NCBI GenBank assembly: GCA_902806345.1 | Contig: CADCWF010000017.1 | Coordinates: forward strand, 1 to 45,410 | Source: an uncultured Thermomicrobiales bacterium | GTDB taxonomy: Bacteria; Chloroflexota; Chloroflexia; Thermomicrobiales; UBA6265 | Length of the DNA: 45,410 nucleotides | Direction: 5' to 3' | Shown here: piece after piece, positions 37,899-39,173 of the stretch | Layout of the letters: every line of letters starts with the position of its first letter | Position numbering within the stretch: position 1 is the first letter of the stretch | The notes under the pieces: model-generated | Databases searched by the model: none | Told to the model about the DNA's origin: nothing | The model's input: only the letters and a program-made list of their open reading frames with translations | Program-made: the position numbers and the translations under genes

Positions 37899-37913
37899 CG
37901 GACCGGGTCTGGC

Positions 37914-37932
37914 CCCAACCGGGGGGGTTGGG
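37914..37932 (+). terminator. Possible terminator hairpin
   Basis: CCCAACC-GGGGG-GGTTGGG forms a 7-bp stem 16 bases after the stop of the mannosyltransferase-like gene. There is no T-tract, so the role is tentative. Confidence 0.3.
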
Positions 37933-38172
37933 CAACGATACCCATCCTCCCCCGGGACCATAGCACCCGGTCCCGAGGGGCCCTCCACCCGTTCAAGGCC
38001 GGCGGTGGCAGCCGTCCGCGGGCGTTTGGTGGGCACCTCCTGCCGATCGCCGTCGGCAACAACGCCGCCGACCCGCCGGGGATCGTCGGATCGCCGGCCG
38101 CTTGGCGCTGGGGGATGGCCCCGACGCCGGGCGCGCCCCCGCGATCTGGTGGCAACCGGCAGCCGACAGGCT

Positions 38173-38350
38173 AGGCCGCGACCGCGGCGACGCCGCGCTC
38201 GATCGGGTAGCCGGCCTCGATCCAGTCCTGCTTGCCCTCGGCGTATTCCCGGACATCGGTGTAGCCGAGCGCGACCAGTCGCTCAGCCGCGATCGTCGAG
38301 TTCTGGCACGGGAGGTTGGCGCAGTAGACGTGGCCGAGCGGGTCGTCCTC
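38173..38350 (-). pseudogene. Rhodanese-like domain, 5'-truncated remnant
   Basis: Reading the minus strand up to the TAG at 38173 gives the second half of a rhodanese domain: HVYCANLPCQNSTIAAERL with the active-site Cys region, then LGYTDVREYAEGKQDWIEAG and YPIERG. The frame has no ATG, GTG or TTG start before an upstream stop near 38427, and the sequence right of about 38332 belongs to a MarR gene on the other strand. The N-terminal half and promoter are missing. The remnant is therefore not expected to be translated. Confidence 0.7.
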
Positions 38351-38623
38351 AGCCGGAGCGGCCTGACCCGGCTGGTCGATCGGCTGGAAGCGGCGGGGCT
38401 GCTCCGCCGCGAGGCGTGCCTAACCGACCGCCGGGGCGCCTTCGCCGTCCTGACCCCGGAGGGTGCCGCGACGCTCCGGCAGACTTGGCCGGCCTACGCC
38501 CGCGGCATCGAGGCGCACTTCGCCCGGTTCCTCACGACGCAGGAAGCGGAGGTGATCGCGGCGGCGCTGGAGCGGGTTCGGGTCGGGGAGAGGGCGGTCG
38601 TAGTGGGCGCTGCTTCGGAGTAG
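38330..38623 (+). pseudogene. MarR-family regulator, 5'-truncated remnant
   Basis: The plus strand from about 38330 encodes the last two thirds of a MarR winged helix. The recognition helix is VVLSRSGLTRLVDRLEAAG, the wing is LLRREACLTDRRGAF, then LTPEGAATLRQTWPAYARG and a C-terminal dimerisation helix, ending at TAG 38621. The N-terminal dimerisation helices are absent. An open frame continues upstream to 38102 only by running antisense through the rhodanese remnant. If expressed it would be a chimera. Confidence 0.7.
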
Positions 38624-38641
38624 TTCGGAGCTTCCGACTAC
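38620..38641. terminator. Convergent hairpin spanning two stop codons
   Basis: GTAG-T-TCGGA-GCT-TCCGA-CTAC forms a 9-bp stem with one bulge. The plus-strand TAG at 38621 and the minus-strand TAG at 38638-38640 lie in its two arms. A shared terminator for converging genes is likely; there is no T-tract. Confidence 0.35.
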
Positions 38642-39015
38642 AGCACCTGGTGCCCCCGTTCGTCGAGGAAGAAGAACTGGACCGGCGCCACCAGGGGACG
38701 CCACCTGGCAAGAAATCGCTCGGCGACCGTCGGGTCGCTCCCGAATACCAGGAACGCCGTCTCGGCACGCGTTTTCTGAAGGAGCCAGACATACTCGGCG
38801 ATCGTCGACCACTTCGCGGCGGGCGTCGGGATGTTTTTCATCCACTTCGCGTCGCCGACGTAGCGGCGGTCGGCGCTGACGAGGTCGAACAGCTTGGGCA
38901 CGGCGTCTCCGACCATCACGGTCCGCGGCCGTACCTCGGTGGCCCAAAGCTCGGAGAGATAGTTCTCCGCCCGCTTCTCGAAGCCCCGCCAGTCGCTCGC
39001 CCCAACTCCGTCCAC
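38638..39015 (-). CDS. Possible PD-(D/E)XK nuclease-like protein
   Basis: The GTG at 39015 gives 125 residues; the ribosome site is weak, so the start is uncertain. The sequence has an N-terminal helix (DWRGFEKRAENYLSEL) and then KLFDLVSADRRYVGDAKW, in which Asp (FDLV) and the D-x-K of GDAKW match the catalytic spacing of restriction-endonuclease-like folds. Further parts are helical, with a final strand VQFFFLDERGHQVL. It has no methyltransferase partner, so a defence role is not claimed. Confidence 0.6.
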   Translation of the reverse strand: MDGVGASDWRGFEKRAENYLSELWATEVRPRTVMVGDAVPKLFDLVSADRRYVGDAKWMKNIPTPAAKWSTIAEYVWLLQKTRAETAFLVFGSDPTVAERFLARWRPLVAPVQFFFLDERGHQVL

Positions 39016-39173
39016 GATCCACCCCGCCGTCCGTCGTGCTCCACATTCCGGGGCTCCAGGCGCTCCCGGCGGCTCGAGGGAAGCACTCGTCCAACCGTTT
39101 CCGGAAACCGGCACCGAAGCCGGCAAAGGCGACGGGCGGCCGACCGGCACCGACAGACGGGAGGAATCTGGCC

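Follow-up and report, generated by a model that had tools for sequence, protein, structure and literature searches.

The window analysed here is a contig of 45.4 kb from a draft genome (G000) that consists of 377 contigs and is 90% complete, and its relatives are Thermomicrobiales and Sphaerobacteraceae MAGs, among which 32 genomes of the family and 61 of the order were searched. At the locus in question, incomplete rhodanese and MarR genes lie head to head within an insert of 1.3 kb, followed by a small gene (Table 1). On the minus strand, the frame at 38171-38419 has 82 codons and contains no ATG, GTG or TTG start codon anywhere. A profile search matches residues 63 to 112 of rhodanese at 38332-38183 (E=2.2e-27), the intact protein having 113 residues. 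The alignment to Pfam Rhodanese (PF00581) is confined to model positions 66-101 of 102 and scores 14.4 bits, below the cut-off of 22.2. The intact counterpart is a single-domain rhodanese, a sulfur-transfer enzyme, and the domain in the window is incomplete, with the active-site Cys loop retained and the N-terminal half gone. On the plus strand, the match to the MarR profile lies at 38324-38593 (E=1.1e-42) and sets in at residue 61 of about 151, both profile matches being far beyond chance, while the first residue aligned to intact relatives is 66, and the Pfam matches span positions 22-57 of 59 in PF01047 and 24-60 of 61 in PF12802. The complete winged-HTH with N-terminal dimerisation helices is thus absent; judging by the general MarR fold, what is left should still have the recognition helix and wing, but neither the helices for dimerisation nor the first one of the HTH. 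These results bear out the original prediction that only the C-terminal half of a rhodanese and only the C-terminal part of a MarR protein are encoded here, and that the longer plus-strand frame is a chimera, which proves to be antisense rhodanese fused to MarR. This 173-residue frame should therefore not be named a MarR gene in annotation.

Table 1. Features at the rhodanese-MarR locus, in positions of the window
Feature	Position	Strand	Description
Insert with remnant pair and sporadic small gene	37899..39173		Between convergent GT87-like and hemY-like genes
Spurious 173-codon frame	38102..38623	+	TTG start; first 76 codons intergenic and antisense to rhodanese, then MarR remnant
Rhodanese remnant	38171..38330	-	Residues 64-113 of intact 113-residue protein; begins V-Y-C-A; own stop codon kept
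Deletion junction	38330..38331		GCAGTAGACG/TGGCCGAG; from alignment to G005 and G015
In-frame GTG	38330..38332	+	Made by the junction: G from rhodanese side, TG from MarR side
MarR remnant	38331..38623	+	Codon 66 (first base gone) through stop
Small gene	38638-39015	-	No Pfam match; in 2 of 32 family genomes; relative in G026 at 55% identity

Intact divergent pairs, which the original prediction proposed to look for in related genomes, are indeed present there. Among the 32 family genomes, rhodanese relatives are found in G005, G015, G026 and G025, and MarR relatives in G005, G015, G025, G008, G004 and G011, among others. In G005 (L027) and G015 (L028), which belong to the same family as the window, both genes are complete and divergent, the rhodanese on the minus and MarR on the plus strand, with the matched coding parts about 110-125 bp apart. 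Another Chloroflexi MAG (L037) has the intact divergent pair too, as do five MAGs from proteobacteria (L038, L039, L042, L043 and L045). On the whole, the divergent rhodanese-MarR pair is real and widespread, and presumably functional elsewhere. An open-access full-text search found no paper that treats rhodanese together with MarR. The window shares both families and their orientation with all these intact pairs, which differ from it in being of full length, in having their matched coding parts roughly 70-170 bp apart, and in that most of them carry TTGCN4GCAA palindromes. The same short forms as in the window are found in none of the 32 family and 61 order genomes, again in accordance with the original prediction.

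The comparison with the nearest two intact pairs locates the lesion to the base. In the multiple alignment, the layout of the window equals that of G005 and G015 save for one collinear gap at 38330/38331, which measures 489 bp relative to G005 and 492 bp relative to G015, and the segments on either side of it, i.e. the 3' halves of the two genes, are 74-85% identical to these genomes in DNA. What is missing comprises rhodanese codons 1-63, the intergenic promoter/operator region, and MarR codons 1-65 together with one base of codon 66. The sequence around the junction reads ...GCGCAGTAGACG on the left and TGGCCGAGCGGG... on the right. A single internal deletion that removed both promoters and N-termini had been proposed with a junction at about 38330-38348; the single gap agrees with this, and the alignment narrows the junction to one position. 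The bases adjacent to the breakpoints in the relatives (GACG then ACG at the left, AAC or AGT before TGG at the right) are mismatched, so the microhomology at the junction would be 0-1 bp, as estimated from relatives and not from the ancestral sequence of the species itself.

We are therefore highly confident that a divergent rhodanese/MarR pair has been cut here by a single deletion, internal to the pair and about 490 bp long. The event is an ordinary pseudogenisation. A pair of the kind conserved in several phyla lost the first 63 residues of the rhodanese, the first 65 of MarR and, between them, the entire promoter/operator region, and the ends would have been joined with essentially no homology, probably by an illegitimate or end-joining type of recombination, after which the gene halves, freed from selection, would be expected to decay. 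Pseudogenes made by an internal deletion across a divergent promoter have in common with the window the collinear gap, the loss of both 5' ends and the intact 3' halves, and those arising from illegitimate recombination show a junction with essentially no homology as well. There is no difference in principle from such cases; here a regulator and its divergent partner are struck together. Both halves are most likely non-functional, to judge from their anatomy, clear decay being not yet visible: the rhodanese because it has no start codon and lacks its N-terminal half, and the MarR fragment because it has only half of the HTH and none of the N-terminal (dimerisation) helices.

The remnants themselves look young. 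Neither has stops or frameshifts. For the retained part of MarR, pN/pS is 0.31-0.52 between the window and its relatives and 0.28-0.53 between intact genes, and for that of rhodanese the corresponding ranges are 0.27-0.38 and 0.39-0.58. Changes unique to the window at otherwise invariant sites number two in MarR, one of them the valine at codon 66 that is produced by the junction, and zero in rhodanese, and intact genes have no fewer. In the MarR wing, an invariant Pro is changed to Leu (codon CTA), which is a possible sign of decay. Since the remnants are without stops, frameshifts or raised pN/pS, the deletion would be recent relative to the divergence of these genera.

This undecayed state, together with the 377 contigs of the draft, also suits the view that the pair is intact in the genome and that its inner 490 bp were lost, or two strains merged, in the course of assembly, the support for the join at 38330/38331 being the assembly. 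We regard such an artefact as very improbable, for the two breakpoints have no repeat or stretch in common on which an assembler would have merged them, the junction is 7 kb away from the nearer contig end, and both flanks are syntenic with the congener G001. Moreover, no second copy of the rhodanese or of MarR is found elsewhere in the assembly, a 90%-complete draft that could miss a second, intact allele or a strain variant. Hardly any weight can be given to the idea that the fragments are kept as functional mini-genes, e.g. a MarR fragment of 97 aa initiated at the GTG born at the junction, a start that is possible but poorly supported. The open frame, the conserved coding sequence and the pN/pS that is not raised are in line with it; against these stand the loss of the native promoter region, a MarR fragment without dimerisation helices and first HTH helix, a rhodanese fragment without a start codon, the substitution of the invariant Pro, and the absence of the short form from the relatives searched.

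A variant of the deletion reading concerns the place of the event, namely that the pair came already truncated within the 1.3-kb insert instead of being deleted in place. The insert is seen in the genome of the window only. In the congener G001, the GT87-like and hemY-like (protoporphyrinogen oxidase) genes converge with about 50 bp between their stops, and in G002 and G003 glycogen phosphorylase adjoins hemY, without GT87 and without the pair. These three congeners were considered as carriers of the pre-deletion state and rejected, the flanking genes being present and the pair absent. No further remnants akin to the flanks of intact pairs are found in 37899-38170 and 38638-39173, and it is possible that the segment was lost from the congeners instead of gained here. 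Arrival in truncated form draws on the absence of the insert from G001 and on its sporadic small gene; however, no donor sharing the junction is seen, and we take this variant to be unlikely. It would alter only the place of the deletion and not its nature, and one internal deletion in a divergent pair is what we retain.

The intact loci further offer a view of the control region that the window has lost. A TTGC-N4-GCAA palindrome lies upstream of MarR in 9 of the 12 regions compared, for instance a perfect TAGTTGCAATTGCAACTA in G025 and TTGTTGCAATTGCAACAA in L038, and these palindromes are probably operators of this MarR protein. One palindrome 5' of MarR, TTGCAATTGCAA, is common to Chloroflexi and proteobacterial loci (L029, L038 and L043) and is, on the basis of this sequence comparison, a strong candidate for the operator of this MarR subfamily; MarR is likely the regulator of the neighbouring rhodanese. 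There is no TTGC-N4-GCAA palindrome in the window, and a search of the whole genome for orphan operators of the form AGTTGCN4GCAACT gives no match. What the comparison brings to light is a divergent pair of rhodanese and MarR that is widely conserved and has this candidate operator.

Some other observations concern the rhodanese relatives. Where YCANLPC has its second Cys, an in-frame TGA stands in L041, L044, L046, L047, L050 and L055 (Acidobacteria-type MAGs), and likewise in L064-L066, L068, L070, L073, L074, L077 and L080 in the order of the window, as in VYCANPT*HAS and VYCWDYQ*DMS; the pattern is that of rhodanese-related selenoproteins. In the window and its nearest relatives this position is Cys and not TGA. 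In L062 and L056 (G027 / YPbin5), the rhodanese relative is in two parts, with what looks like a frameshift near residue 76, and a MarR gene is not found nearby; the split is either a pseudogene or a sequencing error.

Elsewhere in the family, in G025 (L029 1816-2830), the rhodanese is an independent pseudogene with two TAG stops and the active-site Cys lost, while MarR is intact, and a DoxX-like frame lies between them. In G008, the position divergent to MarR is occupied by a DoxX-like frame instead of a rhodanese; these DoxX-like frames (L029 and L030) were named by eye from the translated sequence, without a profile search. No rhodanese is found beside MarR in G004 and G011. From the cases of remnant, pseudogene and replacement, the rhodanese partner seems to be repeatedly lost in the family. 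Neither this MarR regulator nor the rhodanese should be attributed to the genome studied here. More tentatively, and with considerable doubt on our part, the locus may be a hotspot of partner loss at which the divergent partner of MarR is time and again lost or exchanged for another; if true, this would point to a rhodanese activity that the family can do without or that comes at a cost.
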